From Owenia fusiformis (Eukaryota; Annelida; Polychaeta; Sabellida; Oweniidae), in assembly GCA_903813345.2 (NCBI GenBank), contig CAIIXF020000002.1, positions 11,428,150-11,492,149 of the forward strand: a stretch of DNA of 64,000 nucleotides, written 5' to 3'. Below the pieces are notes generated by a model, which saw only the letters and a list, made by a program, of their open reading frames with translations, was not told the DNA's origin and did no database searches. Made by a program: the position numbers and the translations under genes. Of the stretch, positions 2,755-51,300 are shown one piece after another; positions within the stretch are counted from its first letter, which is position 1, and the number at the start of each line of letters is the position of its first letter.

Positions 2755-3245
2755 TAATAAGTTTGTTGATGGTTCCCTATATTGTGTTTATCATATGAAA
2801 TGGGACATTGATAACATCGGGACTGTACCTGAACACGTGTTTGCTCTATGTAATAAGTTTGTTGATGGTTCCTTATATTGTGTTTATCATATAAAATGGG
2901 ACATTGATAACATCGGGACTGTACCTGAACATGTGTTTGCTCTATGTAATAAGTTTGTTGATGGTTCCCTATATTGTGTTTATTATCATATGAAATGGGA
3001 CATTGATAACATCGGGAGTGTACCTGAACATGTGTTTGCTCTATGTAATAAATTTGTTGATGGTTCCCTATATTGTGTTTATCATATGAAATGGAACATT
3101 GATAACATCGGGACTGTACCTGAACATTTGTTTGCTCTATGTAATAAGTTTGTTGATGGTTCCCTATATTGTGTTTATCATATGAAATGGGACATTGATA
3201 ACATTGGGACTGTACCTGAACACGTGTTTGCTCTATGTAGTAAAT
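2755..3245. repeat. Satellite array, proximal block of ~96-bp units, fused to exon 40
   Basis: Five units, oriented like the distal block. The last unit merges without a gap into exon 40 of MYCBP2: exon bases 3216-3245 are satellite sequence and vice versa. This is the founder end of the array. Confidence 0.93.
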
Positions 3246-3355
3246 CAGTCACCGCACGTATCACTGAGCTTGCAACGCCAACTGCATTCTTGCGAGATTG
3301 GAATTCTGCAAGGACTTTACTATTTTGGATCTGGTTCTCTCCTTCTTGTGGTGCA
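3216..3355 (-). CDS. MYCBP2: MYCBP2 exon 40 (last exon in window, runs into satellite)
   Basis: Residues 1808-1855. NAVGVASSVIRAVTDLLHRA aligns with ALSVVSTVVRASKDLLHRA in vertebrates, so the exon is real at least to 3230. I place the donor at TTCAG|GTACAG (3215), giving NTCSG at the end; GTACAG is a weak donor. From about 3245 downward the exon shares sequence with the 96-bp satellite units, so the array grew from this exon end. The following exon is outside the window. Confidence 0.72.
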
Positions 3356-6300
3356 CTAAGTATAAAAGGTTAAAAAAGGTTAAAAATGGAAAACTAATCC
3401 CACACAAATGAGGTAATTCATAAGGCAAATTTAAGATATTAATTATAGAGTCCTGGGTATTATTTTACAGTTTCAATAAAAAAGGTGCTCTGTATATGCC
3501 TCATGCCTTGCTAAGCCAATGGTTATAGGGCAGGGGTTTGGCCAGGGGTTTTAATATAAGTTTCTAATGTGCAACTGCTTACCTATAGTAAAGCAGTTGT
3601 GGAATCTGTCCTCTAGTGTGGTTTGTACCATTTGTACTGAGTGAACAGGCAAAGAACGAGAAAGTAGTCCCATCTGGCCCTTTAACTTTGTTTAATCCAC
3701 TATCACCATTCAGTGTTCTGTCACCATAGTTACGGAACCTCACAGCATAACGTACACCTTCCTAAAAGTCAAAATCAAATATTCATTCAGAATCTGTAGA
3801 TCACATGTACAGTACTAAAGATGAAAAATACAGACCAATTATCACATTCTCTGCTATTCTTAAATTATTACATGATCTCAAAAATGATTGAATAAAATCC
3901 TCTACTCATGTTTCACATCAACTGTTTGATTTTTTGACTTCTGAGATTTTCCACAATACAAAAATATTCATTCTTCTGCTGCATTCATTCGAGACTTACC
4001 CTTATAGGTACAGGTTTCTCAAACTTCAGTTCAGCCACATCATTGGTGAGGTCATCGGGCCCATAGCTTCCCTTGATTGACTCAATGTTGTTCCACTTCT
4101 GTGAATGGAAGGAGTCCCCACCTCCACTACTTTGCTGCAAGTGCAAATTTGGTTCACATTTTAAAGTGTCTTTTCCAGAAGTTGTTATGTTACAAAAGCC
4201 AATCCATGTTACTCCAGGTATTTCCCTTCAGGACAACACAGTCTGATAATTGTTACAAGAGAGTTTAACTTTTCTATGCTCCACACTACTAAGATTTGGC
4301 CCTCAACAGGATGTTAAACATATAATTGAATATGAATAGCCTTTAACCTTGGTTCTACCCTGCGTGCAGAATCTAGTTATAAACTACCCTTTGCCTAGTA
4401 TAGACTATATTAGTTTAACAACCCCGCCTCAAAGATTGGTACCTATGACAGCCCAGGTAATAAATCATTTCAAATCTACCACGCTGACCCTTTCTCAACC
4501 AATCAGTTAAGTGGAAGGAACACATGCTAAATACGTGCTCATTAACTATGCGGTAATGTCAGAGGAAATGACCATTATAGAACAAACTCTGATTGGCTCG
4601 GTGGGATCAAAGATTTATTGTAAACTGAAAGAGTGAAGACGAAGCTCTCTTGAAGTTGAACGAACGCAAAGGGTACCTTAGTTCTTACGCGTATGTTATA
4701 CTGAAGTATATCTAGTATATTTCTACTTACATCGTCCAATAGCTCAAGTTGGTAGTCATAACTCCCACCACCGCCGTACACACAGACACCTGCTATCATG
4801 ATGCCACTGCGGTCAACGGTGAATGCTACAGCATCTGGAGATCCTCCCCCTGTGTTCCAGTACTTGTTCTGGGTGGTGCGAGTGTACCTATTGGGCGTGG
4901 TCAGTAGAGGCCTGGTCTGGCCATCTATCTCACCCTGTAAGTGAAAGGGAAAATGTCAACCAAATGAGGACAGGGGAAACAATAGGACCAAGACCCTATA
5001 GGTGAAAGGGAAAAGTTCAAGCTACCAAATGGGAGCAGGGGTCATTTCCCAATACAAAATTTGTATTCTCATTCTGTAGCATTTGTTGCCAAGATGTTGT
5101 AGTCAAGGTCAGGACAGAAACAATAGGGACCAGAATCTGGGATATTCTCTACTAAAAGTGCATGTACAGAAGGTTACATTCTAAAAGGCCTATCTCAGGC
5201 AAGACAAAATGCAACACTGAGCTTTTCTCCCTTTAAATGCACATAAGTTAGAACATAACAGACCTACCTCAGACCCTGTAGCAGCTGCAGAGAGCTCACT
5301 GACCACTGCAGCAATTAGTGAACATGTATTAGAGACAAGAGACTCTGGGTAAGTGACAGGCTCACCATACAGGGCCTGTCTTACTGGTAAAACTGCTATT
5401 GTTAAGAGTTTGTCAAGGAATTCCTTGAAGGAACAATTCCCACTCACCACTCCCTCCATCTGAAAATACATCATATGAGATTGGAAATCAAAATTGATTT
5501 TTTTATTAAGATGTATTTATTTCACTGTAAAGTAAATCTCTTCAATCGCCTGAAGGCATTATAGAAGAGTAGGATACAAAAATATAAAACAAATACAATA
5601 TTATGATACAATTGAATTCAAGGGGTTCACTCTGCACTTGGGGTTGGCCATGATGGTAATGGCACCATTGGTCAGGTCATCATGGCTTAGCTCAACTATA
5701 ACGTAACAATGATTTCCCATTTACCCCAGAAAAATACCAATATGTAATTCATGTTTGTATGAAATTTCAGGTTAAAATATTAGAAAAAAGATTTTAAGCA
5801 TATTTTACGAGAATTCATGAATATACAGGGTGACACAGAAATACAAACAGGGGTTTCATTAGCAGCAGGCAACAGGCGGATTTTAGGGGACTTCAACTTT
5901 TCCATGTTAACTTATGATTACCACTAATTTTACCTGTTGTTTTCATTTATTTAGCCTTTTGTGAGAAATTCTAGTGAAACTCTTTAATTTTGGGAGAACT
6001 TTTTTCAATCATCATGGAATCTTCTTGATACAATATTGGTGTTTTACAAGTTATCTAGAAATTATTCAAATTTGGTGAAATTATCAAAGATTACATTTTT
6101 GTGGTCATTTTGCAAATTCCTTCTCGAGCAGAGGTCCTACACACTAGCCTATAAAATTTTAATTAAATTTAAACAAAATCTGTCAACTGGTATTTGAGTT
6201 TAATATGGACACACTAACAAACTGATGGACGGAAATGAATGGACAAACAGATGGATGGACAGACTGCTTCTCTATATCCCTAAGAACTTCATTCAGTGGG

Positions 6301-9300
6301 ATAATTATTTTCGTTACTGAATAAAATACTGGTTTGAAAAAGTCAGTATACCCCTGTGGAACCAATCCTATTGCTGAATAGTAAGATTAAGGGAATACTA
6401 ATTTTTCAATAATGTTGATTTTGCCTCAACACTCTTTCAATAATTAAAAAAGAACCCAATAATATTTGTTCAACATTCATCATTTACAAAAACGCTAATC
6501 AGAAAAAGCATTTAAATGATCATATAAATGCACAACCTTTTGTGACTGTTCATTAGTTGAAGTAAAGCTTGTACAATTATTAGTTAGAGAAACACCAAAA
6601 TTCACCAAGATTTAGGAACTTCTGTGAGATGGAAAATGTAACATTTAACCACAGTATGGACAAAATTATCAATTTAGGAAATGAAAGAAATATAAGTTCC
6701 ACAAATATTTCACAGAAATGCAATATGACAGGCTCTGAAGAAAACATATTTGCAATTTTATCATCTGTACTTCTACTATTGTTGTCTAATATCGTGACAG
6801 GACTTGGACTTATAGGGAATCTACTGTCATTCTTGGTGCTTTCAAAGGAGAAAGTTTCGAACACAAGAGTATTTCTTCTAAAGACGCTAACCATAACAGA
6901 CTCAACATTTCTCCTACTGACTGTTCCTTTCACTGTGAATGGCAGGCACCAAATTGGGGAGATAAACTTTAAAGTGGATATTACTGATTTCAATGAATTA
7001 TTACTGCCAAGTCTATCTACAGCATCTACTCTCACAACTTGGATGGTTGTCTTGGTAACCATTGACAGATACATGCACATAACAAAGCCACTTCGCGTGA
7101 AGACATTATTCACTGTCAAAAAAATGAAATGGACTGTTGGATGCTTAGTAGTTGGAGCATGCCTCTACAATGTACCTAGCTATTTTGAATGGCCTGGTGA
7201 TACTTGCTTATTACATTGTAATCCAAGCTATCACCTTATATATAATGTGATTTTAAATGCAACCTTAAGATACTTTGGACCAGTTTTCATAGTTTCTATA
7301 CTTAATGTGATATTAGTTAAAACTATCAGAAACTCAAAATCAAAACTTAAGCAAATGACATGTAATGAAATTGAGGAAAGAAATCACGTCATTACCATGA
7401 TTGCAATTGTGTCAGTATTTCTGATATGTTCAGTGACCAATATGGTTAATGAAGTTATAAATATGCTTATAAGATATAATATTATTTCAATACCATTTTT
7501 CAAAGTAAAATTGATGACCATTGTCTCAAAATTTTTTCTTGTTTGGAATTCATCATTTAATTTTGTAATATACTTCATGATAGGGAAATCATTTAGGAAA
7601 AGGTTAAAACAATTATTTAAGAGGAAAAATAACAATTCACCAATACACTAATGAGTTAGCAATTCACAATTACACTAATGTGAAGAATAACAATTAACAA
7701 ATGGAATAACAACTGATGAATATCAAATATCGTTGTATAATGTATTACAAGTGTGACAATAATTATTGTTAGTCCCTGAGTGTAAAAACTCGCATCTGAT
7801 TGGTCAATTAGCGGTCAACATTTTTGCCTGTACCTCACCTGTGCATCATGGGATATCATATCATTGACCGCTTATGTTACTGTACTACACTTGTGAATTA
7901 TGGGGAATATTACGTCATAATGAATGAAAAAAACACCAGAAAAATCATGGTAGACGGACATTTCGTAAACGTTGATGAAAGTGATATTTTGACTTTGCTA
8001 GACGACAAGTATAGCAAAAATACAAATAGAAACGAAAAATTGACATTAATTTACTAGTGAGTACGCAGTTACATGTATGTGCCGAGAACAGAGAGTTTAG
8101 CAACCACTGTCTTAACATTTTCTTAAAAAATTATTGCTGGCGTGGTTCGGAGAAAAGATTGTGAAATGAAGCCATGATTGATGACTGTCGTCTATATGTG
8201 TATTATTAGTTTCTTCTGACTAACAAAACAATTGTAGACCTCTCAATTCGGTCAACCGTCAAAATCATATACCTCGACTGTAAACCTTGAAATTACTGTT
8301 GACCTTGACCTTCGGTCTCTGTCAACAGTAGTTTCTTGGTTTACAGTCTCGGTATACAATTTTGCCGGTTGACCTCTGGAGAGGTCAACAATTGTATTAT
8401 GTAATATTATTTTTTCCGGCTTTTATAGCCCATTTATTTCATTTACATTATACATAATATTATATTAAAGTAGAAAAACTTGTGCCGGAAAAGAGAAAAT
8501 AAAGGTAGATGTGACACTGGTAAGGAGGCTATTTCATTTTTAAGGTAACTGGACAACTCGGACCCAGGACAACTCGGACCCTGGACAACTCGGACCCAAG
8601 ACATCTCGGACCCAAGACAACTCGGACCACTTTTTAAAATTATGATCTTTATCATTATGTATGGTTTTATTTTTTCATTTATGAAAATTAATACATATAT
8701 TATATATTGTGACTTCATATTTTGTATTAACTTGATGAAAATGTTTTAATTTGACTTATTTGATGAAAGTTATGAAGTAAGACCAGTAAGAGAATATTGA
8801 AGCTGAAGACCCGAGACATCTCGGGCCACTTTTTGAAGTTATAGTTGATTTAATTTAAAACAATTTAATCGAATTAACACAATATATGAATTCACAATAT
8901 ATAATATATGTCATAAAAACAAATTAGAACCCCATACAATGATAAAAACCATCATTTCAAAAAGTGGTCCAAGTTGTCTTGGGTCTTTAGCTTCAATAAT
9001 TTCTTACTTCTTAACTCTCATCAAAACATTAATTTAAAACAATTTCATCAAATTAACATACTATATGAATTCACAATATATAATATATGTCAAAATAAAC
9101 ATAAAAAATAATTAAAACCAAATATAATGATAAAAATCAAAAATTTCAAAAAGTGGTCCGAGTTGTCTTGGGTCCGAGTTGTCTTGGGTCCGAGATGTCT
9201 TGGGTCCGAGTTGTCCAGGGTCCGAGTTGTCCTGGGTCCGAGTTGTCCCGAAACCATTTTTAACATAGTTTATAAATTGGGGATGCAAGGGGACTCATAT

Positions 9301-12300: not shown

Positions 12301-15300
12301 ATGTTTTGAAATAATCTGAAGATTAACATGCAAATGCATTTGTATGTTGTGTGCGATTAGTATGTTAGAAGACATTGAATATAAAGCAGAGAAACACCAC
12401 CAGCTATGACATGTAACAAATCTCATTTTTACCACTTGCATATTAACCTAACCACATGCCAATATAACATGCTTTATAAATCAAGAAAGTGAAATCGGAA
12501 ATATAAACTAATAAGGTCCCTACAGCCATTTTAGAAAGTCGTCCTTTATATTAGTTTTCATCAACCAATTCATAATTCTTATTGTATCATTAAATGTCAA
12601 TCATTTCACACAGTACAGTTATAAATTACCCTGGTGTTTACATATTCACTATATTAAGCCCTACCCTGACTGTAGGAACCCTTTCTAAACAACATTTAGT
12701 ACATCACTCCTTCAGGTTTTCTGCAAGTTACAATGATGCATGTGAAACTGGTGAATAACTTAAGTGAGAAAGACATATTCTGCTGAATTCTGAAGGATTT
12801 CTCCGCAATTTGCATGAAAAATAACAAAAAAAGATTATCCAAGTATACTCATTTTTCATTTTTTCAGTCATCTAGCAAATCAAAATTTATTTATTCAGAC
12901 TAATTCCTTCGGGAAACACATTTTCAGAAAAAAATATGTCAATTCCACAGGAAATTCCATGAAAAATCAAAATTCAAGAATTTGCAAATCCATGAAACTT
13001 AGCGCTCTGTCAGCACTCTATGGATATTGAAAACAAAGAGGAATAACTACTCCCTTTTGGCTAACTATTCAATGTATATTAGGCTATTGTCAAAACATTC
13101 TAGATATTAGTACTACCATGCGATGAAATACTATAGGTTAAATCATGGGTTAGTCTTGCCCCCACCCCTATTCCCTAGGTACTTGTACATCACCAACTCT
13201 GGTGAGGAGGGGTCCAGGGTCTGAAGCAAGACTAATCATGGGTGACTGTCCACTCAAGGAAACCCATGGTTGAATCTACATACATAATACATTCTAATGC
13301 CCCATCCATGTATTTCAGATATTAGTACTACCATGCAATGAAATACAACTATAAGTTAAATCATGGGTGTCCACTCAAGGAAACCCATGGTTGAATCTAC
13401 ATACAATACATTCCTACCAATTTTTCTGGCATCTGCTTATTGTATACGTGATATGTCCCAACATACTGTCAATGTAACAAACAAGCAGATTGTTGATTTG
13501 TGCAAAAGCAGCAATCAATTTTATGTTGATGAATAATGTAATGTTACAGAAATGTGTTGATTAATACTCAAATCACTACAAAATGGATGGTTGATGAATG
13601 CCAACCCTAGATGGACAGTTCATTAAAAATCTATTAAATTAGGAATTGCAATTCCAAATCAAAAATCAATTTTGTGTAATTGATTAAAATGTCTTTAGAG
13701 CTAAAGGGCATAAATGGACCTTTCTTCAAATGATTTCTATTGGAGCAGTATATCTTAATATATATTTATATGCAAACAGTCCAAGTAAGGTTAAATCAAA
13801 TATTATAGGGCTTATCAAATCTCAATCTCATGCAAGTTTACTACATGTAAACATATTCCAATCATAACACCATTAAATGAAATTCACAACAATATAAATT
13901 AACAATAACATATTAATTCAGACCCTCTCCTACACTGTATATGTAAATAGTTCCTGTCAGTACTTACAGGGTCAATGCTGTTGAGAAGATCGCAAAGGCA
14001 GATCCACTTTAGTTCCCCAGTGGGGTAGAAAGCATGGAAGCACGCTGTGAAGGTCTTGTGACATTCTTGTAGGATTTTACTGGCCATATTTAACATGGGG
14101 GCCTAAAATAATGAAACAACACTGTTATAACATGTACAGACTGTCTTCTAACTGGCTAACTCTAGCGTGGGGAAAAACCAATTCATTTTATTTTAAAAAC
14201 ATTTTATTTCATTTACATAATGACTGCATGTACAACTATCAAAACAAACAAACCTTTTTGACAGTGAAACATATTTACACACTTAATCCATTATTACTTT
14301 TACCATTATTGATTGATTAAATTAAATATGGATGTCACTATAGAGCCTGTCTTTAATCGTGATCCAAATATGGTTACTACAGTATAAAACCTGTGTACAG
14401 TGAACAGCTATGGATCCACAATACAAAGAGTGTTCCCTGTAGGTAGTTGTTCATTACAGAGAGGGTAATTTATACAGGAGTCGGAAGACTATTTGCAGAG
14501 GAAGGGTGTTCACTAGAGACAGGTGTTCACTTGAGAGAGGTGTTCACTTGAGTGAAGTGTTCACTTAGACAGGTTTGACTGTAACTATAAAATATGCAAA
14601 TAACTACAGAATATACCTTAAGAGAGTCACTTGGCTTTAAGTTTGTATCTTTTGTGTGATTGTTCAAAGATGGTGGCATCCCCTCAGAGAGGATCTTCTT
14701 TAAGAGACCCCTTGCCTTATACACACATTCTGCCTTTCGTATACTATCAGCAGGGGTCTTTTTCTCAATTGCTGTGAAAAGAAAGATTATACATTTTTAA
14801 ATGAACAATATAGCTTCAAGAACAAGGCCCTCTATGATAAATATCGCACTTGAATTACCCAGCATTCCCAAAACTGATGTTGGCATTAGTCTGATTTTGC
14901 AATTGTAAAAATTTCAAGTTAAATGGTTTTCTTCAATATCTTGATAACAAGATTTCTTTTGGCCTCTCTTCACACCCTACTAACTTCTCTTAGTGTGGAT
15001 ACATTATTAAACTATATCATCACATTATAAATATACTATGTTATAAGCCTTACGTCCATTGGGATACACTTCACAAGTATATATTCTCAACAGTCGTAGA
15101 GTGGCCATACACACATACACCAGACGTTCTAAGTCCAAGATGGCTGCTGTCAGATTGTCTCCTTTGAGGCCAACTGTGTTGTTGAGGGCAGCTTTGAAAG
15201 TCCTCCATCCCCATTCTAGTAGGTTTAACAGTGAGCTAAAACACTCCTGAAAATAAAGCACAATTAAAAATATTTAATGAAATATGTCTCAATGAAATTG

Positions 15301-18300: not shown

Positions 18301-21300
18301 CGATCAGAGAAGCAGTATCTGAATTATTGCCTGGACACTTTAAAGGATGAAACTAATGGTGGAACAGATAGAAAAGTGGAAGAATGGACAGATGACGAAT
18401 GAATTCTCTATATCCAACTCAAACTTTGTACAGTGGCATAATGAGCATAAACCACTCCACATAAAATGATATCTCACCTAGCATATGAAGTGCAGCATGT
18501 GCCCTTGTAGAAAATGTCCCCATACGAACTGGAACAGCTAGTTCAGGGCTCAGTATACTAGATATCTCACTACCAGACATATGCAGTTTGCGCACATCAG
18601 GGCTGATGACATTGTAGCATGACACCTCATGATTGATTGGAGAGTACCTTTAATACATAGTTAGCACATTAATTTGGCTCATCAATGTTAATTAATGAGT
18701 CATCACACTGTCAGACATGAGAACAGATCTTAAGCTCATGGACAGCTGGTCACTACCATGTGTTTCTTAATTTTCAATACATACTGGATATTTTCAAGAT
18801 ATATATGAAACATTGCAACTGATCAATCCAAATGTCCTTATTGCAAGTTGCTCTCAAATCCCTAATGTATATGTGGAGTTCTCAGACATCAGAATTGATG
18901 ACACTGGTACTCTACAAATTTTCAATAACTGAGTATACTTACGCCCATAGAGTGTCAAAGACAGGATCAAAACATATACTGGCATTGGCAAGATCAGCCT
19001 GTTCTGGTCCATTGAAGCTCCTGCAGTTGCCATCTAGGTTGTTAATGGTGAGGCACTTGATGGTAGATGACCCATATTCTCCTCCTGGTATTATACCTAG
19101 AATAGTGAAGATATTATAAATTACCAGAGTTAAACTCAAATGGGTCAAGAATTCCCATCATTTCCTTTAACTTCAAATCTTAATGATATAATAACTGAAT
19201 TACACATAAAATATGCTGAACAAGGCATTAAAAAAAATATGACTCAAATGTCATGAGTTGGTTGAAGTTGGTTGAAGTTATCGAAAATGGTTGAATATTA
19301 AACAAATACTGGATGACCATGAGGTGGATATGCCAGAATACCTATCCGAGGAAAAAATACTAGGCGAGGCGTGTTCGACAATCAAAAATTCCATTTATTC
19401 TCTCATTTGGCCTTATTCTTAAGTATTCCCCCCGTATATAATAAGTTTGGCCGATGCCTTATCTAGCGGCACCTACCTTTTGTCAGTTAATCACAGGAAA
19501 TTAAATGGAAATCCCCTTATCTCATATCATCAAATCATTTCTCCCTCGCATTCGTCTCAAATTCAACATGGAAGAGATTCTAAGAAAATGACGTCATCGA
19601 CAAATGGACTCGTCGAAAGTATTTTTTTCGAGGATAGGTATTCTGGCATACGGGATGGTTTGAGATCTCGTTGCTTCAATACTGGATAGAACGAGATCAT
19701 GCTGCCACGTATGGCAATAGACCCTGCAGCTCTTAACCAATCAGATTTGAGTATTTTAACGAGGTGCATAATAAAATAAATAATGAATAATAAACCCACC
19801 TATACAGTTAGTATTGGCGAACACTGTAGCACTGGTCAGTACATGGACGTTAATAAGAGATTCATCAATACGTAGAAATGTCTGGTCTCCACTAGCTGCG
19901 ATCCATGTTGCTCTTCGCCCTGACTCATGCCCGATTCCCTGTATGAGGGCAGGGTAGGCATGCCACTTCTGTGCGAGGGCTTTTGGAACACACCCAGGAA
20001 GTTCAGGAAACTTGGTTGGTTCTGATCTCCCAAGCTGGCCATTCTGAAAAATTAAATGGATCGCCACTTTTTAAACGGTACTCATAACCCATCGGCTATA
20101 CTACAATATCTTCAGATGTTGGTTAATATACAGTTTGGTATTCATCCAATCAATGATCACTAAAAAGCCATGCTAATGTCTTAATTCAAGACAAGAAAAG
20201 CATTGTGGCTGAAAAATGGCAGACCCTATTAATTTTGTAATAAATAAAAACTGTGGGGCCGGCATTAAGCACTCCATTCAAAGTTAAGGGTATCCATTTT
20301 TCAGTTATTGTGACTAACAAAACTTTTAATGAATTTTCATGAATAACTAGTATTTCAATCCAAAAGATAATGAACAAATATTTCACTCTATTGAGGTGAA
20401 TACCTGTACATCTTTCACATCTTTCCCTTCAGGCTTCGTGGAATATCACCTTGTGAAAGTGCTACAGGTATTTACCGAAAATAGAGTGAAATATTTGTTT
20501 TATTATATCACTGTCTAGCTAAACATTCCTAATATTATTAAGTCATGGGTTAACATTGAAATACATACGAATCTACTCGGTTCGTCTGCCATTTTGACTT
20601 ACACTGAACTAAATTATTTAAACTGAACGAAAACAAATTCTTTGAAAATTCCCGGGAGCGTGGGATATCGCTAGATATCTCACGGTTGTCTTATCTGATT
20701 AGCATTGCCATTGAATATCGCCAGATATCCCACGACATGTGACCCGGTTTTGACCAATCATACTGTTGCTAGCTAGATAGTGATATAATAATACACTGTA
20801 TGTCTATTTCCAATATCATTGTATTTCTTACTGTATGGTTCCCAAATGTGTATACATTGCCGTTAGTTGACAATACAACTGTATGTGTTGACCCAGCTGC
20901 AATCTGAAGGGCTCTATGGTCCAGTTTCACCTTGGTAGGGACACCCCTAAGAAGAAATTCAATCATTAGCTTATAAACTCAAGTTATGTCCTCAATTTAC
21001 AATTATGACACCCCAAAGAAGAAATTCAATCATTAGCTTATAAACTCAAGTTATGTCCTCAATTTACAATTATGACACCCCACAGAAGAAATACAATCAT
21101 TAGCTTATAAACTCAGGTTATGTCCTCAATTTACAATTATGACACCCCACAGAAGAAATTCAATCATTAGCTTATAAACTCAAGTTATGTCCTCAATTTA
21201 CAATTATGACACCCCACAGAAGAAATTCAATCATTAGCTTATAAACTCAAGTTATGTCCTCAATTTACAATTATGACACCCCAAAGAAGAAATTCAATCA

Positions 21301-33300: not shown

Positions 33301-36300
33301 TACAAGAGCTTACCTTACAATGTGCTATCCCATTTCCCCAATGGTAGAAGCACATTGTCACTTGGCCATTGTATACATCTACAAGAGCTTACCTTACAAT
33401 GTGCTATCCCATTTCCCCAATGGTAGAAGCACATTGTCACTTGGCCATTGTATACATCTACAAGAGCTTACCTTACAATGTGCTATCCCATTTCCCCAAT
33501 GGTAGAAGCACATTGTCACTTGGCCATTGTATACATCTACAAGAGCTTACCTTACAATGTGCTATCCCATTTCCCCAATGGTAGAAGCACATTGTCACTT
33601 GGCCATTGTATACATCTACAAGAGCTTACCTTACAATGTGCTATCCCATTTGCCCAATGGTAGAAGCACATTGTCACTTGGCCATTGTATACATCTACAA
33701 GAGCTTACCTTACAATGTGCTATCCCATTTCCCCAATGGTAAAAGCACATTGTCACTTGGCCATTGTATACATCTACAAGAGCTTACCTTACAATGTGCT
33801 ATCCCATTTCCCCAATGGTAGAAGCACATTGTCACTTGGCCATTGTATACATCTACAAGAGCTTACCTTACAATGTGCTATCCCATTTCCCCAATGGTAA
33901 AAGCACATTGTCACTTGGCCATTGTATACATCTACAAGAGCTTACCTTACAATGTGCTATCCCATTTGCCCAATGGTAGAAGCACATTGTCACTTGGCCA
34001 TTGTATACATCTACAAGAGCTTACCTTACAATGTGCTATCCCATTTGCCCAATGGTAGAAGCACATTGTCACTTGGGCATTGTATATATCTACAAGAGCT
34101 TACCTTACAATGTGCTATCCCATTTCCCCAATGGTAAAAGCACATTGTCACTTGGCCATTGTATACATCTACAAGAGCTTACCTTACAATGTGCTATCCC
34201 ATTTCCCCAATGGTAGAAGCACATTGTCACTTGGCCATTGTATACATCTACAAGAGCTTACCTTACAATGTGCTATCCCATTTCCCCAATGGTAAAAGCA
34301 CATTGTCACTTGGCCATTGTATACATCTACAAGAGCTTACCTTACAATGTGCTATCCCATTTCCCCAATGGTAGAAGCACATTGTCACTTGGCCATTGTA
34401 TACATCTACAAGAGCTTACCTTACAATGTGCTATCCCATTTCCCCAATGGTAAAAGCACATTGTCACTTGGCCATTGTATACATCTACAAGAGCTTACCT
34501 TACAATGTGCTATCCCATTTCCCCAATGGTAGAAGCACATTGTCACTTGGCCATTGTATACATCTACAAGAGCTTACCTTACAATGTGCTATCCCATTTC
34601 CCCAATGGTAAAAGCACATTGTCACTTGGCCATTGTATACATCTACAAGAGCTTACCTTACAATGTGCTATCCCATTTCCCCAATGGTAGAAGCACATTG
34701 TCACTTGGCCATTGTATACATCTACAAGAGCTTACCTTACAATGTGCTATCCCATTTCCCCAATGGTAAAAGCACATTGTCACTTGGCCATTGTATACAT
34801 CTACAAAAGCTTACCTTACAATGTGCTATCCAACCTCTGCCTTCACTGTTCTCTTTAATCTGTCTCTCTTTACAAACTTTACCCTACAATACAGGAAATA
34901 CATACTCTTCTTAGTCTGTCATTGTCAGATATAATTGCAGGTTGTGTCTGCAGAGAAGCATACTCATCAAACATATTATTGAAAAATATCGAATCCAGTG
35001 AAGGAACACAAGAAATACATTTCTTTAAACTCTTGTAAGTCTACCAAACAGCCCAAGTTAGAAATAATTAATCAGTTCAACATTTACATATGTCACACAT
35101 AGAGGTTGCAATTTGATAGAACCTTACACAAATTACTGGAACCATCTTAATCTAAAATCACAGGTCATACATGAGAAAAATGGTATTTTTGGTATTTCTA
35201 CAAAAGAGCGAGGGAAAGTATCGCAACAGATTTTTGACAGTAAATAATTTTTTTCTAGTAGTTTCTGGCTGTACAAAAATGAATGCATATGAAAGGCCAA
35301 TGTATAATCTTTAAGAAAAATTCAAAGAATGGTTTCAAGATCAATTGGATTATCTCATAAGCCATGTTTAATCCACCCATCAACAAGCTTTTTTTTCAAA
35401 ATACAATCGTCATTTTCACCATCGTCCCTCATTTTTTTTTACAATTTTCATGCAAAGTTACATTGTACTTGAACACATGTTTCATCACTTAAAATATATA
35501 AGGAACTCCTCGTGGATTAGGATTATGATAATCCAATATAAGGGGATCCAATGGGGCTATGCTTTTAGTACAGCACACTCATATAAGATGTCATTAGTGT
35601 GCCATAAAGTTAGTTCAAAATGTTTTCATAAATGAATGGTTGGACTTGTTTGATCCCCTGCTGTTTGATCCCCTGTTTAATCAATGGAGCATAACCGCAG
35701 CATTTCCCAAAAAATCCTGAATACCTGTCAAGTTGACTGTTTAATGTGTGAGTGCAGTTAAACCTGTGTGTGTGTGTAAGTTGCTAAGAAATTCTAAATA
35801 CCTCTCTTTATGATAATTTCTATGATGCCTTATTATAGCATTTACTTTGAACAGGTTTTCTGTATCTTGTTTATCAGTAATGATTCACGAGGTACAGTGC
35901 TATTAAAATCATAAATACAGTACAAGAATTTAGTACATCATACCTTTGCCAATAATTTTAGTAAGACAAATATTTTGATCCAGCTTCTGAAAAAAACATT
36001 GAACATGTTTCTATATGATGATGTGTTGTAACACACTTCCTTATTTGAGTTTATCTCCAGATTGATTATTCAAATAATGAAATGAAGGATGATATGCTAA
36101 GAATAATTTTTGCATATTCATCAATTCAAGAAATGTTATCCTAAGAAAATGTTATGAGTAACATACACTCTTACCTTAATGTTAACATTAGGGAGATTAA
36201 GCTTGCATATAAAAACATTGCAAGCTTAAAGTCCCTATTGAGAGTCTCTGAAAACCACAATCAATACCATTGAGTGTGTGGTGTATACTACCTTTATCAT

Positions 36301-39300
36301 TATTTCTAAGATTTACAATAACATCTTTTTAGCAAAATGTCCGATTTTCTTCCATATTAATGTGAACAAATATAAACAAACATAGAATGATTCTATTGGT
36401 TGAGTCAACAATTTCAGTTATTAGGGAGGTTAAGATCGCACTATTTTGATGAACGTACACATGGAATGTTAAACTTATGGTCCCCTATTCACTGTGTTAT
36501 AGCATGACGGTTACGTCAAGGCGATTTGCAAAATTTTGCAGCAACGATAACAAAAAATGGCGGATGGGAAAGGCAGCATGTCCTCTTTCTCGCCTGTAGG
36601 CAATATTCACAGATAAGATTTCCTTTTAAACTAGTTCCATTCGGTGACGTATATATGGATGGTTATAAAGACTGGGTCAAATCTGCCAGGTGGTCTACAA
36701 GAAACAGAATATAAGCTGTAAACCTACCGACTGAGATATCAAAGTTTATAAGTTTTGATCCATTCTCGTGTTGTCTCAGTACATGAGCCACTCAAAATAT
36801 TAACTGTAAGTATAAGTAAACTGTGTATAACTACTGCAAATTCAAAATACATTATTATGGCTTGAGTAGAACATATTAGGTGGTTTCCAATGCTCAATTG
36901 GCTTTGTATGATCGTATGTAGGTTACATCTATATACCACAAGGTTTTTAGGCAATATAGACCATGCCCTAACAACAAAAACAAAAATAAACAAATTACTA
37001 AATTTTTGTGTAGTTTTGAATTTCAAACTCGACAGTTTTTCTCTTATTTCATGTTATCTTCGGGCATCAATTTGCAAAGGCTACGTTCAAAATATACATT
37101 ACTGAAAGTATCACCGAATGCGTTTCTTACATAAATCGTTCATCCTTTCATTGATACACAGAAGTAGAAAATAACGCGCCAACCTTAGTTTTCTCTTCCA
37201 TCGCGGCCATTTCATTGGATAAATCAGTGAACGTAGCTGTCCAACCTCGTTTTCAGAGGTGGCGTAACCGTCATGCTATAACACCGTGCTATTGACTATT
37301 TTCACATCACTGGCCTCTTTTTGTCTGATTGATATAATGCCAATTGATGTAATGGTCCCCAGTTAAAGCAGTTGAGAGATGGACAACATTACTGGGGGTC
37401 ATAACAGTACTCGTTCATGTTCAAGTTCTCACACAAGTGTTTTACACAGTCTGTAGCCAGCTTTTACCAAGGGGTATGAGCAGTTTTACCAAGGGCAAAG
37501 CTTTTGCCTAGGGATGAACTTTTTGACAGTTTTGGCTAAAAAATCATGCGAAGTGCTCAGATTGGTGAGAAACTGCATCATTTTGAAAGAATCTCTTGGG
37601 GGAGCAGCAGCTCCCTTTATCTCTCCCCTCTACCTGCCTACGAGCCTGTGTACTTAACCTCTCTAATGTTCATGATCAATACTAAATGTAACATTTTCAC
37701 ATTTTTCATATTTCTACTATTCATATTGACCAATCCCATGTCATTTTAACAGGTCCTTAATCCCTTGTTTTCTAGTCGTATGTGCTTTTATTATTCAGTT
37801 TCACAATCTATTGTTTTGCCATGCCAGTTTTACATGTTTGCATGCTGAGTTTGTTTTATGTAATGTTTTTTGTTCCTTATATGGTTTACACATTCACTCA
37901 GCTGAGTTGGGGTGTTGCCCCATTACTAGTTAATGTTGCCTAGAGTTTGTGACTGTACATACACAAAGTATTTCAAATATATATTTTAGAAAACATTTTA
38001 TATTTGATTCCCACCCAAGGGTCTTCCACTCACCCATTAACACGGGTAGTATCTGAAGCCCCGCCATGATTTAGAAATCGCGAGCAAGTTCCCGCTGAAA
38101 TCGCGAGCAATTAAAAGAAATGAAGGGGTATCTTTTGTTTACTTAAATTGTATGTTGTACAAAGCGTTTTCATTTAATTTTATTCAATTATCACATGGCA
38201 GTGATACTAAAAAGCAACTGCTGCAAAACAAGTATCACGATCTGATGTTCTGAATTTCGTTATTTGATAATTGGAGAGAGAATGTATCATCTTAAATCTT
38301 TATCTTTATATTTCTATATTTTATAGCTGAAGAAGGTCGTTGCCCTTCAGTTGAAATGTTTATAGTGATATGAAATAAAGGTATTCAGAGTTTCACTTCC
38401 TAAAGCTTCGCCGAAATTTATATATTTCCATTTTACCATATCCCTCAAGGCCCCGCTTCTAACATGAGCAATAAACTAAAGTTCCCGCTGAAAACATGAG
38501 GAGGCCCCGCTGAAAACATGAGGAGGTCCCGCTGAAATCAGGAGCAAGTGTCTCTCCAAAATGGAGTGAAGTCCGATTTTAATCTGCAAATCTGCCACGA
38601 TTGTAGCCAACTAAATAGATATAATAATTATTGATACTCTACAGAGCACATGTATATCATATATCATTGTTAATGTTATTATTGTGACAACTAAACATGT
38701 ACATGTGCGACTCTTTTAATATTATGTAATATCATTGTTATTTACGACTCTCTTTCATCATCAACTATCAATTCTTTAAAAAGGTCTCACGTGATTATGT
38801 TATTATGATAAGTTTTACCAGTGCAAGAGGCGCATACAGGGTGATCAATAAATAAGGTAAAAGTATCTGGCATTTCTTCAGATTTTACCCAATCCTCATA
38901 AAATTTGCACAGAATAATGTTCAAACATTATTGAATTGAAATATCAAGTTACAGATCAAAGTGATGTGATTGGTTGAAGTTATGGTTGCCATAGCAACAG
39001 AAAGCATGAAGACCCGGGCAACTATCAAAGAACTAAATTTTCAGTCGAAGCGCTTTTGATAATATATTTCAAATCACAATTGAAATGACATATCTTATTC
39101 TTATTTTATACTTCATAACTACTCTACCTAATGTCCTTTGTTTTAAACATGTAGTTCATGTCTTCTACTCCAGTCTTTGAACAAATTTTAAACCCATTTT
39201 CCCATAGCCTGCTGCAAATTTTTAAGATAGCTGACTTCAAGTCTTCCCATGAGAAACTCCCTCAACTCCCTCTTCAGGTCACCATGAAGGTAAAATCATT

Positions 39301-42300
39301 AGGGGACAAGTCAGGAGAGTATAGAACATGACCTAACAGTGGGAAACCCAGTGCTTCAATGGCTTGTACCGTGAGAATAGCATTGTGAGATGAAGCATTA
39401 TCCCAGTGCAATGTGAAACGTTTTACGGGCCTCTTCTTCCTCTTTGCTCTCATCAAATCTCTTCTGTATTGTTTTTCATCATTGACCTGTGTCATAAACT
39501 TTCTATGATCAGATCAGTTTTCATTACATATTTATCTTTTCCATGACATCAAACACCAAATTTGCAAGAAAATATGTAACAATGGTAACAAAGTATTAAA
39601 ACAATAAATGCTGGCACCCACGTTTATTTCTTTTCAGTTTGAAAAAAGGTCCTTTTTATCAGTTTTCGTTCAAATTGGATGCAATTAAATTGCCCCGGGT
39701 ACCTCTGACTCCAGTTGCCATGGTAACTATAATATTAACCAATCAGATGGCAGAATTTATATCTTTATACGTTTTAATTCAGAAATGTACAAGGTATATT
39801 CTGACCAAATTTCAGGATGTTTGGACCAATATTTACAAAATACCAGAAACTTTTACCTTATTTATTGATCACCCTGTATACGTATGTTTAGGCCATCATA
39901 AAAAAGTACCAAAAATATTACGGACTTTCCCAACCGCCCACCCGTATTTGACTCCCATACAATAATTCCCTGAGCCAGATGGCCTAATGCCAACCCCCTC
40001 TCATGAAGATGACAAAGTTGTGCAGCAACCCAGTGGCTGAACGGATGTGATTCATGTGAAGCAGGGATCTTATCTGGAAATAGCAGCATCCAATTGCAAA
40101 AACTCGGCAATACAATAAACTGCTGTAAAAATAAAATTAATGTTAAGTTGATGATTTCGCGCGTCATGTGGAACCAAGTGTTTAAAAGATGAGAGGAATT
40201 CCATCATGTTGAAGTACAGGTCGCATTTCAACATCACATGGATCGGTGTTTCCGATTGTCTTGTCTTGTCTGGTTTGCTCAGCCAGCTAAAAATGTCATG
40301 TGAGATACAATGAGACGCGCAAATTAAGAAGCACGGAACATGTGGAGCTCAGTTTTGAATTCCATTATGGAAACAGATTTAAAATCAGAAATATTATTAT
40401 TGAAATAATACATTCAAAATGATTTGGTTCGTAATCGTAATAGATAAGAGAGTTTAAGCTTGCAAATAAAATCTAAACGTCAACCTATACGTATGACCAA
40501 TCGCCAAAACAAATGCATCGTTTAATATTTCCCGTTCACGTTTAGGTTGTAAAAAACATCGTAAGCTTAAACAACCTATTATCACGATACATCAACGTAT
40601 AAATTGTTAACACTTTTAACACCAATGCAAAGATTGACCAAATGAAACAAAATTTTTCAATAATAAAATGCCATATCTAATGTGCCACTTCAGTGTTTTA
40701 GCATATCAAAGTATTTTGCAACCTAAGTGACATCATAGTGAAATCATTGCATGTAGGTAGCAAAACGTTTTGAACAAAATCAAAATTGATAAATGTTGAA
40801 TGACAATCACATTAATTAAGTTCTATACGTATGAGACAAAACGCAACGGAATATTTGTACATGTATTTTAAAAACATAAATATACAGTGCGTATCAAAAA
40901 ACGCAACAGATCGTTATCTCGGAAAAGCACAAAACCAGTGATAACAGCATTGATTTCATTCAATGCACTGTAAAGCCATATGTCTCCTCTTTACAATGAT
41001 ATATCATTCATTGATATTTGGTCATGGTTGGGCGAGTAATCATTCCATTTGCAAAGAGCGCCAAAATTAGCTTTGGGCCAAGTTATAAAAATTGCAAAAG
41101 TCAGTGTACGGAGCCCGATGCAATATTGGAAGAAAACATAAAACCAATGCTGATTGCATCCTTTTCATTTAATGTACCAAAAAGCCGGATTACTCCTCCT
41201 TGCAATGGAATATCATTCATTCACAGGGAGTCATGGCTGACCGAATAATCGTTGATATTGCAAAGTGGGGCAAAATTCAGCTCGGACCCAAGTTTTAAAC
41301 ATTGCAAAAGTCAGTACAACGGGCATTGGGGCTATTGGAAGAAGGTGTGACAGGTGTGGTATAGACAGTAAAGTGTTCATACTCATACTCTTGCAAGAAT
41401 ACATCCAATACCCCTCCAAATTGCTACCACTTTCTTGCACATAAAGATGCGCTCATCTGTCCACGTCATGCATGGTTCAGCCCTGAGTCATCTGTGGGTT
41501 AAAGCAGAGAAAAGCAGCACATGGGCAACTCTTTCTCGAGGTTTTGCAATATCTGGTGGAGGAATTGTGAGCACAGATGCTCCTGAGAGAGTATCCTGTT
41601 AATAATCAAAGATTCGAGGTAATAAATGTGGATGGATATCTGAAAGAACGGGAAAACCGGTGTAAAGGGTAGGAGGTCCTATCAGTTATGTCCTTCTTCG
41701 AATAGCATTTGTATTTCAAATAATAATAGTATGACACAAATGTTAGCGCAACCAGGTGCAATCGGACCTGTAAGCATTACTATTATATGCAATTTTCCGT
41801 TTTGTAAACTTAGATATACATAGCTAAGTATGGTGTATATTCCTTAGTTTTTTATAGAAATCTACAAAATTCCACTGCTGTTTTGTCTTAACAGTATTTT
41901 CAATCACGGCAATCACTTTTCAAACGAATTTACTAGAAATATCAGAGGGTTAACTGTTATTCTCATATTTAGTAGAACTAGATGTGAATGACATTCACTC
42001 TTTATCAAGCTGGAAAATAAAATAATAATTTGCTACATGGCATAATGAATATAACCAGAGGATATCGCCACGATATAATCCAGTAAACCAATATGCGGAG
42101 GGTTTTGTAACGATATACTCCAATTCTTGTTGATTTCCCCCATTTAGTACACTAATTGAAGGATATTTAGAACATCCTATGAGTTTTTCAGAAAATCATA
42201 TTAATCTTCTCGACGATATTGATATATGAACTCGTTCGCTTCGCTCTCCCGTGCAGATATCAATATCATCTCTAGTTAGATAAAACTGATTTTCTTTAAA

Positions 42301-45300: not shown

Positions 45301-48300
45301 TTTTCTTTTGGAGCTATCTCAGGAGCATCTGTGCTAATCATTCCTCCACCAGATATTGCAAAACTTCGAGAAAGAATTGCCAATGGGCTTATTCTTCGCT
45401 TTAACCCACAGATGACTCAGGGCTGAACCATGCATGACATGGAGAGATGAGCGCATCTTTATGTGCAAAAGGTGGTGGCAATTTGGAGGGGAATAGGATG
45501 TATTCTTGCAAGAGTACGAGTATGAACACTTTGCTGTCTATCACGCGGTACTAACTTCGACCGTTAATTTGAATTTTTGACCTACCAAATCTTTGAAAAT
45601 CAAGGATTGCGAGTCCCATACTGCACAGTTTTTCTTCAAACTTGTTCCATTCAAAGCATAACAAAAATGCCTTTCTGTTGGTACATTTTTCTGTTATACA
45701 GAGTGCCTACTTTCTGCGGCATTTTCGCAGCTGGGGACCAAAACGCTGCTAAAACGAGGGACTCTTTACAATAAAGCAATGCACCGACAGAAAGGCAATT
45801 TTGTTTTACTTTGAATGGAACAATTTTGAAGAAAAACGGTGCAGTATGAGACGCGCAATGCTTGATTTTCAAACATCTGGTAGGTCAAAAATTCAAATTA
45901 ACGGTCGAAGTTAGCACCGCGTGTCTATGTCACACCTGCCACACCTTCCTCAAATATCCCATATGTCCTATGTACTGTTTAAAACTTGGGTCCGGGCTGA
46001 ATTTTGCCCTACATTGCGAAATCAATGATTATTCGGAAGTGATTATTATGAAAAGGATGCATTGGTTTTATGTTTTCTTCCAATATTACACTGACATTCG
46101 CGATGTTTATAAATTGGTCCCAAGCTTATTTTGGCCTACTTTGCAAAAGGAATGATTACTCGCTCAAACATGACCCAATATCAATGAATGATATACCATT
46201 GGAAAGAGGAGACACATGGCTTTAATGTATGGTACATTGAATGAAATCAATGCTGTTATCACTGATTTGCACTTTTCCGAGATAACAATCTGTTGCGTTT
46301 TTTTGATACGCATGGTATATTGATTGTATATCGGCTCGTTATGTGCCTACAAAACCTCAGTAGCCAGGTATGGAATACTTAGATACGACATTAGTAACTT
46401 GGAGAAACATCAAATGACCATCGAAATCTTCCTGACATCTCATATTTTTTGAAGTATTGTAATAAAGTATTTTTCTACATTGATGGTGTATAAATCATTC
46501 TTGAAATAAATATTTAAAAAACAAAAACTTTAATGTTATTGTTAAATTATAAAATTAGAACCTACAACGTCTTCTGAATTATCATGGAGCCTTTGTGGTT
46601 CTCATTTCTCTCAAAATTTCCTCTTCTTGGAACTTGGGGTGTCTCTGTTTAATAAAAGGCTCATTCCCCTGAACTTCATGCTTCCATCAAGTTGTCTTGA
46701 ATTTATGTTGAAGTCTAATACACGATATATCCATCTTTCTCCTATATATTTTGGTTCGTTTATTTTGAAATCCAATGATGGGTGAAACTGTATAAAATGT
46801 TTGACGAAATCGTTCTGCTCTGATGACTTGAAGTTGCAATAAAAACATTTGAAACGTGGCCCTAGAATGAAACAGTATATATAATTAATAGAAATACTTT
46901 GCTTGGTCTTTCGTGTACGTTTATTTGAAGAACCTTAATATTTAATGGAATGTAATGAAGCTTTCCTCGTGATCGAAGCGGGTACTCGTGAAATCTGCTC
47001 CTGATTTCAGCGGGACCTCCTCATGTTTTCAGCGGGGCTTCCTCATAATTTCAGCGGGGCCACTGGAACACCTCCAATGGTGTATTTCACCCCCCACAGG
47101 AGATGTTATTGTAAACTAACTTATCAATACATACAATGTTGATCCAATATTCATTATGAGGAATGCATATCGTAGTTCTTGTCTCAATTTTAACGACAAA
47201 AGTAATTTTGTTACAGTAAATTATGTAAACGTGCATATTTGCGCCAGTTTTAATCCATGCCGGTAAACATATTTATCGTTCATGTCATTGTTTGTGAAGA
47301 TATACCTGTTCTGAAAGTATACCTCAAGTTTCAAAGAACAGTAATGCGTATTCTTACCATTTTTGGCCATATTTCCAAGTGACACAAATAAAAAGGACTT
47401 TGCTCGTGATTTCAGCAGGAACTTGCTCGCGATTTCTAAATCATGGCGGGGCTTTAGATACTACCCGTGCATTAACATAAACAAAACATGAACTCTAATA
47501 AAAATGCCAACAAGACTGCAAGGGAAACTTAATCTATGAATTGGACTTTGCCATATCACATGTATTAGTCCCGTGACCAGGGAGGGGGAGGAGGGGGGTT
47601 GAGAGACGACCCTCTCCCCTAGGTACATTTTCTGTCAACATCCTGCAATTTTTCACCACTTTAGTACTTTTCAAGTGATGTTCGGTTGATGCTTTCATTT
47701 AATTGCTTGCACTGATGGTTTCTCTTGAAAATTCATGCACATAAGGTGATCTAGTATTTCAACACAGGACCCTGAAAGCGCTATTTGAGCTTGAAGTAGA
47801 AGTATTCATAGTATTACTGTTTGCATTATTAATCTCTATGATTTTTCAATAGGCTAACTCAGTCAGTGAATGCAGGATTAAAACACAACACACATGAGTA
47901 ATTCACCCACCTATGTATGTTATTATTGAAAAACATTGCCATCTTTTACATCACTCCTAAATTATTTTTGTAAACATGCATTTTAAGAGGTTCATTTTTT
48001 CAAAAAAAACTCAAAAACAAACTTCATGGAGTTCCTTACATATTTTACTTGATGAAACATGTGTTCAAGTACAATGTAACTTTGCATGAAAAATTGTAAA
48101 AAAAATGAGGGACGATGGTGAAAATGACGAATGTATTTTGAAAAAGCTTGTTGATGGGTGGATTAAACATGGATTATAAGATAATCCAATTGATCTGGAA
48201 ACTATTCTTTGAACTTTTCTTGAAGATTATAGATTCGCCTTTCCCAAGCATTTACTTTTTACAGTCAGAAACTACTCACAAAAAAATTATCAACTGTCAA

Positions 48301-51300
48301 AATTATCAAAAGTCTGTTGCGATACTTTCCCTGCTCCTTTAGAATGTTGAAGTTACAAGACTTACGTTTATACATGTTTTTACTTGATGTTTGATTTGTA
48401 TTTCACAAAATATATTTCTCAGAGGTAAGAATCTCAATCATATGCGTATGACAAAGAGCAGATTAATTAAGTAAATATTTCCCTTTTCTTACCTTTATAG
48501 TTCCGCCATAGCCAGAGCCTACTTTAGTGAGACCATGTTTATTGAAAATGTAAATATATCTTCCATCACTTGTTATGGAACTGGTCCCTTCAGTTTCTGC
48601 AAATAATATGTAAACAAATGGAGTTGATTCAAGAAGAGCATTGATTCTGAAAATCTATTCTAGGGGCTATTTACAAGGCACAGGGTGAACAATATTGCAC
48701 CTAAAATAGAGCAGGACACTAGTCAGTGAGAATGAAGAGCTGCAGTTCTGGATTTTCATTCCAAAGAATCTCTCTGGATATTTTTAATCAATTTGTGAAA
48801 CATTTTTCTCAAAAAAGTTAGACACCACCTACCAATGCCTGCTACGCTAATGCCAATGTTGTACATTTTAGGTACAATAAAAACAGATTTTTGAAATCCA
48901 ATATTGATTAGATTGAAAAATTTTGAATTGTTTTTCAAGGTTACCAGCTCACTATACATATTGAATTTCCAGACATGAACAACATTATACTACAAGTATT
49001 ATTTAGCAAAGCAACTTACTGTCTTGCTCCAGGAGAAAGGAGCCTGTTTTTGCCTCTAGCTTGATGCCCTGAGTCAGCCACTCTGGGTGTTGGGTTTTGC
49101 CTAGCAACACTGCCTGGACACTCTTTTGCAAGGATGTCAGAATACAAGGAACCTGGAATACACAAAGGGAGGTTAAGCTATACATTTTAAGAGAACTTGT
49201 ACATGGGATTACTATCCCTTCTCTATGTATTTAGTTTTTCCAGGGAACTCATTACAACTCTTTTCCTCATACCTCACTCAGGCAACTAAATACTTATATA
49301 AATGACGATCTTCAAAATGTATTCAGCATGCATGTATTCAAGACTAATTAAAAGAATACATGAATACTGAGAGTTTTACATTGAAATAGAACCATAATTC
49401 ATCAAGAAGGAAAAAAATTAAAACAAAACAGAGAGGAAAATGAAACATCTAAGAATACAGCCAGTCATGAAGAAAACAAATCCCAAATATCCCAAACTAT
49501 GATAATAACATGTAAAGAAACAACAACTAGCCCTCCTTCCATCCTCTTCTAAAGAACTAAAACTATCATAGTTTACCACAAACCTTTATAGTCTGTGATG
49601 CAAGTACATTAGAGCTCATTAACATCTCAGATATTGCACACATTAACTTCCCCGTGTCTCCCCTGGCGATTACGAGACTCAGTAGTGCCGAACATGCCAG
49701 TGATGTCATAGAGTCACAGCTGGAGTATGGGACAGGACTGTTTGGGAGAGGAGTCTTGGCCAACTCAAGTAGTAAATCAAATAATGAATCTGGAAGCAAA
49801 TCAGTTATCTAAATTCTACTTCTGGGAAGAAATGTTCTTTTTCTTGAATGTTATTGAAGACATTTTTAAAACTTTTTGTATAGTGTCACTTTTTAACATA
49901 GAATATAAACATTCTAAATAAAAGCCTTTGCAAGTTTTGGCTTCAACCCTTCTGGGGTCTGGCCCTGTAACATGTCTAACAGCACATACCTATAACCTCT
50001 ACAGGTTCTGGCTTCAACCCTTCTGGTGTCTGACCCTGTAACATGTCTAAGAGAGCTTGTAAGGCCCTGGTACATAGTGTGGGCACCTTCTCTTTGGTTT
50101 CATGGATCAGCTCAAACACACTGGAAAGTCCTATACCAACAATCTGAAAATATATTTTACTCAGAGTCAGATTGGAAGTGAGTAATCATTCGTAAACTAA
50201 CTTGAAATTTAACAGTTATATTACGAGCAACCAGGTGGAAAAGAAATCCAGAATTTGACATAGCCAACTTAAATACATCTTACAAGACAAGCTATATATG
50301 TAAAAAAAAGTAGCAGTTTGCTAAGCAATAGTCATGTTTAAATCATGGAATTCTTTATTTTATAGAATTAAATGAAAATCATGATTACCATCTTGAATAA
50401 GACATTACAAAACATAACTCATGGAATCTTCAACTTTAACTCTATTTCTCGTAGTTCCATCTTTTTGTGGATATAATAATAAGAAACCCTTCTCTCTTTT
50501 ATCACACTACTGTATTTCATCTTTCCTTCTTTAAAAAAGAATTTCAGAAAAATCTCTCTCAAAATTTTAACAGATACTGTAGTTCCTAGTCAGGATTCTT
50601 TTTATGGTTTTAAAAATCATTCATCAAGAATGTAAGAGAGAATTATATCAGAAAAGCAAATGATAGGGCAGGATGCATACATCTCTTTGTTTGGCTATTG
50701 GCAAAAAAGTATTGAATAATAAAAAAGAAAATGTTTTTCATATCTAAACAATTCATTACTTTTGGAATTTTTAACTGCAAACTTTTATCTGCCAATTCCT
50801 CATCCTCGTCGCTGTCAGAGTCAGAATGCGTCACAACATTTGATGCGAGATATTCTTTCGTTGTTTCTTTGATCTGGTTCTCGAGTACAGCTTGGCGAAC
50901 ACTGGCATAAACAGCATATGTTGACGGGTTACTAGGAACTTCAATGATGAGTGGAGATTGATCATCTTCAAACACTTTGTCACGCTAAAACATGCAACGA
51001 TGTAATTTAATATAAAATTGTTAGAAGCAAACATCATCTTACTACATTGTTATATTGCTTTGATATTAATCTTGCATTGCACTATGGAAGTGAGTGTCAC
51101 ATTGTAATAGGGACTGTAACACTGCATTGGGGGGCTGTAACATTGCACAAGGGACTGTAATATTACACTAAGGAATGTAACATTGCAATATGGACTGTCG
51201 CATTGTACTAGAGCCTGTAACATTGCACTGGGGACTGTAACACTGCACTAGGGGCTGTAACATTGCACTAGGGGCTGTAGAATTGCACTAGGGACTGTAA

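Follow-up and report, generated by a model that had tools for sequence, protein, structure and literature searches.

Introduction

Tandem repeats that cross exon-intron borders were named mirages in the Adh3 gene of amphioxus, and they have also been described in the globin, troponin C and PGBD5 genes (PMC3087553, PMC3902484). As presented in the excerpted parts of these reports, mirage units measure 10-160 bp, array length is variable, splicing is reported to be undisturbed, and the interior of an array is homogenised but its ends are not (PMC3087553, PMC3902484). In potato, a duplication over an intron-exon border is described, again in an excerpt, as having produced an intron (PMC4974935). 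A search of the literature on such repeats in bivalves, molluscs and oyster gave no junction case among the matches listed; an intronic minisatellite has been reported in abalone (PMC6905558, in part). A different source of arrays is provided by the pearl/HINE elements of bivalves, which are of the Helentron type and, in the portion of the source on which we draw, carry core repeats of ~145-162 bp by a 4-base microsatellite (PMC7492417). Sub-terminal inverted repeats and a 3' palindrome are further marks of these elements.

An earlier note on the DNA studied here drew attention to six tandem arrays at splice junctions of a single gene, and held that a class of splice-junction minisatellite does not seem widely described. 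Such repeats are indeed rarely reported, but the class itself is known, as the mirages of amphioxus and from human exon-intron boundaries (PMC3087553, PMC3902484, PMC2812944, each consulted as excerpts). Here, we describe an analysis of these arrays in the window, a 64,000-nucleotide stretch of DNA from the annelid Owenia fusiformis. We conclude that the arrays are probably mirage-type junction minisatellites, that is, on-the-spot duplications across or touching exon-intron borders whose extra copies are discarded by splicing.

Results

The host gene and its exon model

The window has a G+C content of ~35%; that of amphioxus is ~41%. With the bivalve-like elements described below, this composition would fit a mollusc better than amphioxus. 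A minus-strand gene at 3216..50984 comprises exons 3-40 of a ubiquitin ligase gene of the MYCBP2/PHR1/highwire type. Its exon model was trained on clear reading frames, and the ends at splice signals were then corrected by hand, a step steered by what we take to be a gene-wide resemblance to human MYCBP2; exon 40 presumably corresponds to a part of the human protein as well (DLLHRA). In an independent rebuild the 38 exons splice into one frame of 1790 codons without a stop, each is preceded by AG and followed by GT (the exon 37 donor after correction), and the exon numbering used earlier agrees with this model. Pfam matches in the gene are to PHR and RCC1, and the PHR domain matches structure 3hwj (MYCBP2) with E 1.4e-63. 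The model requires no extra exon or intron between duplicated copies, and the extra copies at junctions sit on its intron side. An open frame of 1790 amino acids over 38 modelled exons is consistent with a gene that works despite its arrays.

Other frames were noted within the window. A long frame of a rhodopsin-type receptor (6584-7648, plus strand) occupies the opposite strand of the intron that separates exons 35 and 36; the part searched matches Pfam 7tm_1 with E 3.5e-13. By eye, a frame at 25435-26520 (plus strand) resembles a reverse transcriptase remnant, with no Pfam match for a truncated piece in which a few residues were mistyped, and one at 39277-39513 (minus strand) resembles a mariner transposase remnant, with no Pfam match for the piece submitted. 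Searches for tRNA genes and Rfam families gave no match, and no relative was found among viral contigs.

Eight junctions carry tandem duplications

For each of the 76 junctions, a 51-base probe with the junction at its middle was compared, without gaps, with the surrounding 2.5 kb. Exactly eight junctions score at least 30, five donors (exons 40, 8, 10, 9 and 4) and three acceptors (exons 22, 37 and 12); the lowest of the eight scores 32 and the next junction 25 (Table 1). All six arrays noted earlier are real. Four of them cross the junction (the donors of exons 4, 8 and 40 and the acceptor of exon 22), and the other two, at the donors of exons 9 and 10, start 3-4 bp inside the intron. The acceptors of exons 12 and 37 are additional to these six: the exon 12 repeat, like those of exons 9 and 10, lies within 4 bp of its border, and at exon 37 the acceptor itself has been copied.

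Default TRF recovers the 23 x 79, 18 x 67, 2 x 21, 2 x 36, 33-34-bp and 96/137-bp arrays. It does not find the exon 4 pair, and the exon 37 duplication is missed at both default and loose settings. Two further candidates were left outside the eight: a repeat at the exon 15 acceptor (24870-24978, loose TRF only), too diverged to be a clear array, and a weak match at the exon 32 acceptor (15237-15298, score 51).

Table 1. Positions of junction duplications and of the elements inserted in or near them (TRF, tandem-repeat program; strand left empty where none is assigned)
Feature	Position	Strand	Basis
Exon 40 donor satellite, 96/137-bp	1-3245	-	TRF; exon ends 3216
Pearl/HINE-like element	1828-2754		145-bp repeats and (ACGG)n; ATCCCACCGAAC near both ends, inverted
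Exon 37 acceptor duplicated, copies 61 bp apart	4935-5041	-	Junction probe score 36, sequence
Exon 22 acceptor array, 18.0 x 67 bp	20940-22147	-	TRF, unit alignment; exon start 20946
Exon 12 intron-end duplication, 2.1 x 36 bp	27511-27586	-	TRF, sequence; exon 27433-27509
Pearl/HINE-like element, second	~30363-31208		145-162-bp core repeats, degenerate ACGG-type microsatellite; flanked by 13-bp direct repeat CAATATCGTACCT
Exon 10 33-bp array, main part	31233-31435	-	TRF, empty-site test
Inserted 698-bp terminal-inverted-repeat element	31436-32133	-	~58-bp inverted termini, 9-bp target duplication CCTAAGTGA
Exon 10 donor GTAAGT from 32164, with first array unit	32134-32164	-	Sequence, empty-site test
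Exon 9 donor repeat, 2 x 21 bp	32608-32650	-	TRF; from +4 of intron 9 (intron start 32653)
Exon 8 donor array, 23.0 x 79 bp	33016-34831	-	TRF
Exon 4 end and donor, duplicated 2 x ~71 bp	49919-50053	-	Loose TRF, 1.9 copies, score 225

The exon 8 and exon 40 donor arrays keep most of their splice sites

Exon 8 (34815-34883) ends inside the first unit of its array, and this unit contains the donor together with the final 17 bp of exon sequence. The donor AAG/GTAAGC is kept in 23/23 units, only four columns vary in 21 units, and unit 1 has private differences. At exon 40, the gene-side unit of the satellite includes the donor and the last ~30 bp of the exon; among the 21 units with AGAGCAAACA, CAG/GTAC is present in 20 and GTAC in all, and an inserted element interrupts the satellite. 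In-frame stops are met if exon 8 is extended as far as its second or third donor, or exon 40 as far as its second. In the exon 4 pair the donor is lost in the second copy, and read-through of the donor meets stops. The exon 10 array seems to lie 729 bp off its donor because the 698-bp inverted-repeat element has been inserted in it; with the element removed, the empty site carries 6.9 x 33 bp from intron position +5.

The border between exon 8 units can form a hairpin with a 10-bp stem, ACAATGTGCT with AGCACATTGT, that ends 3 nt before the extra donors, and the real donor lacks the upstream arm of this inter-unit hairpin. Masking of the extra donors was rejected as an account of splice-site choice: the inter-unit hairpins are strong, but the first donor is less open than the other 22 (predicted openness 0.031 versus 0.049-0.189 at all 22). 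In predicted RNA folding we found no account for the choice of the first among 23 equal donors. Recursive splicing via the AG/GT of each 79-bp unit was also discarded, there being by eye no pyrimidine tract before the AG.

The donor arrays could be functional, either by collecting U1 or by making a share of messages unproductive through the stop that follows the first extra donor. The complete set of intact donors at exon 8 and the stops met on extension there fit this proposal. We consider it highly improbable, however, in that the array is so homogeneous that its intact donors need no selection, the spare donor of exon 4 is dead, and predicted pairing does not favour the first donor, although the exon tail in the first unit is slightly more open (0.025 versus 0.000). 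Duplication tolerated by splicing is the reading that we prefer for these donors.

Acceptor arrays and the loss of AG

In the exon 22 array the terminal unit includes 7 bp of the exon. Of its 18 acceptor cores, two have TTAG (the outermost core and the one in use), seven have TTTG and nine TGTG, so that AG is lost from 16/18. Across the 17 full units six columns are variable, four of them through changes in a single unit; the remaining two are position -3 (T or G) and position -2, where one outer unit has an A that recurs in the used copy and nowhere else. The random chance that both such columns fall in -3 to -1 is ~0.0014, for a pattern examined post hoc. All 17 acceptor positions further upstream would bring in-frame stops if spliced to.

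The exon 12 repeat stops at the A of the AG, and its upstream copy has AA instead. At exon 37, by contrast with the cores of exon 22, the upstream copy retains AG (TATAG). Counted by eye, a splice dinucleotide is present in one of two copies at exon 4, one of two at exon 12 and both at exon 37. Loss of AG is therefore no general rule, since the spare acceptor of exon 37 and the outermost copy of exon 22 retain it; the exon 37 copy contradicts a simple contrast in which extra donors stay intact (exons 8 and 40) and extra acceptors are silenced (exon 22). The earlier statement that in three arrays no unit lacks the splice signal is true of exon 8 (23/23) and nearly so of exon 40 (20/21), but is wrong for exon 22, where AG is found in 2/18 cores. 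Outer units escape homogenisation, as in the AG of the first and last exon 22 cores only and the private differences of exon 8 unit 1.

Tandem arrays are prone to assembly error, and one amphioxus mirage looked misassembled in a draft, according to an excerpt of that report (PMC3087553). An origin of the present arrays as assembly artefacts is nevertheless hardly credible: their units vary at defined positions, divergence is seen between the copies at each of exons 4, 12 and 37, and the exon 10 array has a transposon, complete with target duplication, inside it.

Arrays away from junctions

It had been proposed that only one clear array elsewhere in the gene avoids a junction. This proposal does not survive, as TRF gives arrays at 30480-31164, 8551-8628, 9155-9247, 14505-14574, 38484-38544, 47004-47061 and others. 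Off-junction arrays are thus no rarity, although several appear to have come with transposons. The array at 51095-51755 is large and clear, stands off a junction, and shows no sign of a transposon origin here. Two inverted arrangements were also observed: a fold-back element at 8551-9247 with inverted arrays of 16-bp repeats at both ends and arms ~77% alike over ~680 bp, and an inverted pair of arrays of 22-bp repeats (38484-38546 and 46996-47058), 8.5 kb apart and 95% alike, in the 13.6-kb intron 7.

The excess at junctions depends on the counting rule

In this one hand-picked gene, the counting rule decides whether arrays at junctions show no excess or one of up to ~7-fold, and P runs from 1.5e-5 to 0.74. 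The chance tests covered exons 3-40, with the arrays at 51095-51755 and 53741-53881 beyond their range. In the seed-unit test each array was counted once in a collapsed gene, and seeds wholly within an exon or with two junctions were disallowed. Over 60 settings, 3 to 9 arrays fall on a junction, where 0.7 to 3.7 would be expected; P is 0.0013-0.13 if the split exon 10 array is omitted and 0.00012-0.055 if it is counted. A second version set aside the arrays judged to be transposon-borne, namely that at 30480-31164, two inverted pairs (8.5-9.26 kb and 38.5/47.0 kb) and a dispersed repeat at 40.9-41.3 kb. P is then 0.0024-0.063 at tolerance 0 and 1.5e-5-0.0029 at 4 bp (nine settings each), where both the 4-bp tolerance and the transposon-borne list were picked post hoc. 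In both tests the exon 15 and exon 32 acceptor repeats count as hits at the loose settings that their scores reach. Of the eight filtered TRF arrays with score >=75, with exon 10 taken at its empty site, six come to within 4 bp of a junction, where 0.85 would be expected; at tolerance 0 the same eight give 3/8 (P 0.032).

At one setting, a base-centred test with collapsed arrays finds duplications at 8/76 junctions where 4.0 would be expected (P 0.047); across 12 settings its P spans 0.004-0.74. When arrays are left uncollapsed there is no excess, copies being found at 10.5% of junctions versus 15.5% of random intron positions.

Chance could have contributed: a minisatellite-rich genome with short introns would put a few arrays on junctions, and a striking gene was then picked. 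The expected hits already present, the lack of excess in uncollapsed positions, base-centred P above 0.09 in 6/12 settings and the post hoc selection of the case all point in this direction; the eight junction copies, the gap in score to the next junction and the low P values at 4-bp tolerance with transposon-borne arrays set aside point the other way. We regard chance placement as possible but less likely than not. It is compatible with local duplication tolerated by splicing, which needs no excess.

The earlier note had offered, as one reading, that junctions are hot spots for replication slippage or R-loop-linked duplication; hairpins at the border would be another possible route. The seed-unit and transposon-filtered tests, taken at face value, show the enrichment that this predicts, and the exon 8 unit folds much better than shuffled sequences (z -4.35). 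The units at exons 4, 10, 12, 22, 37 and 40, however, fold no better than shuffles (z -0.64 to 1.17), and uncollapsed positions show no excess. Hairpin-driven birth was rejected as a general account, a low z being seen only at exon 8 among the seven junction regions folded. Real hot spots thus seem unlikely; the idea is only suggested by the data, as the excess swings with the counting rule, and a single gene chosen for being striking cannot settle whether any excess exists.

Discussion

The anatomy of the locus suggests that this gene underwent at least eight local tandem duplications, each of a short stretch covering or touching an exon-intron border, and that some of these duplications would have grown to 18-23 units and become homogenised. 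The extra copies would end up intronic, so that the mature message remains unchanged as long as the splice site on the exon side is used. Extra donors downstream of the real donor could then be tolerated intact, and the inner units of exon 22 may have multiplied only after the loss of AG. The extra sites at exons 8, 22 and 40 add stops, so no protein can be gained from their use: either splicing passes them over or the resulting RNA is unproductive.

The earlier suggestion that a spare copy is tolerated and spliced away is partly supported, in that the anatomy and the stops at these three exons fit it. We assume that the normal splice sites are used, and infer that the tolerance of splicing explains the survival of the arrays.

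A broader proposal, which we put forward as speculation with the odds against it, is that splice junctions give birth to minisatellites throughout animals and that the polarity of splicing filters the expansion of these repeats. Donors would multiply intact and acceptors only when AG-less, as at exon 22, so that arrays record the sites that the spliceosome would have taken. Should other genes prove as rich in junction minisatellites as this one, such repeats would commonly feed the growth of introns and might also give rise to new ones. They would also provide natural tests of spliceosome choice among many identical sites, such as the 23 equal donors in one intron or an acceptor array in which 16/18 cores are AG-less.

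Compared with described systems, the pearl/HINE elements would explain two off-junction arrays here, by their similar core repeats and microsatellite as given in the excerpted source (PMC7492417); these elements are transposons that carry their own arrays, whereas the junction arrays look local. The potato case resembles the present one in that the duplicated stretch lies across an intron-exon border (PMC4974935, in part), but here existing introns have been enlarged and none is new in the model. Human duplicated genes likewise contain internal tandem repeats with minisatellite units over exon-intron borders; these are reported to be able to create new introns and splice variants (PMC2812944), whereas our exon model needs no new intron. 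The closest likeness is to the amphioxus mirages, which, in the portions of the reports used here, are minisatellite-like, span 5' or 3' exon-intron borders, carry AG/GT in many but not all units, and have boundary units outside homogenisation (PMC3087553, PMC3902484). Unlike them, the gene described here has eight such duplications, arrays of up to 23 units, and one array in which 16/18 acceptor cores are dead. The class of repeat is already known, and what is newer is its density in one gene and the juxtaposition of 23 intact donors with 16 silenced acceptors.
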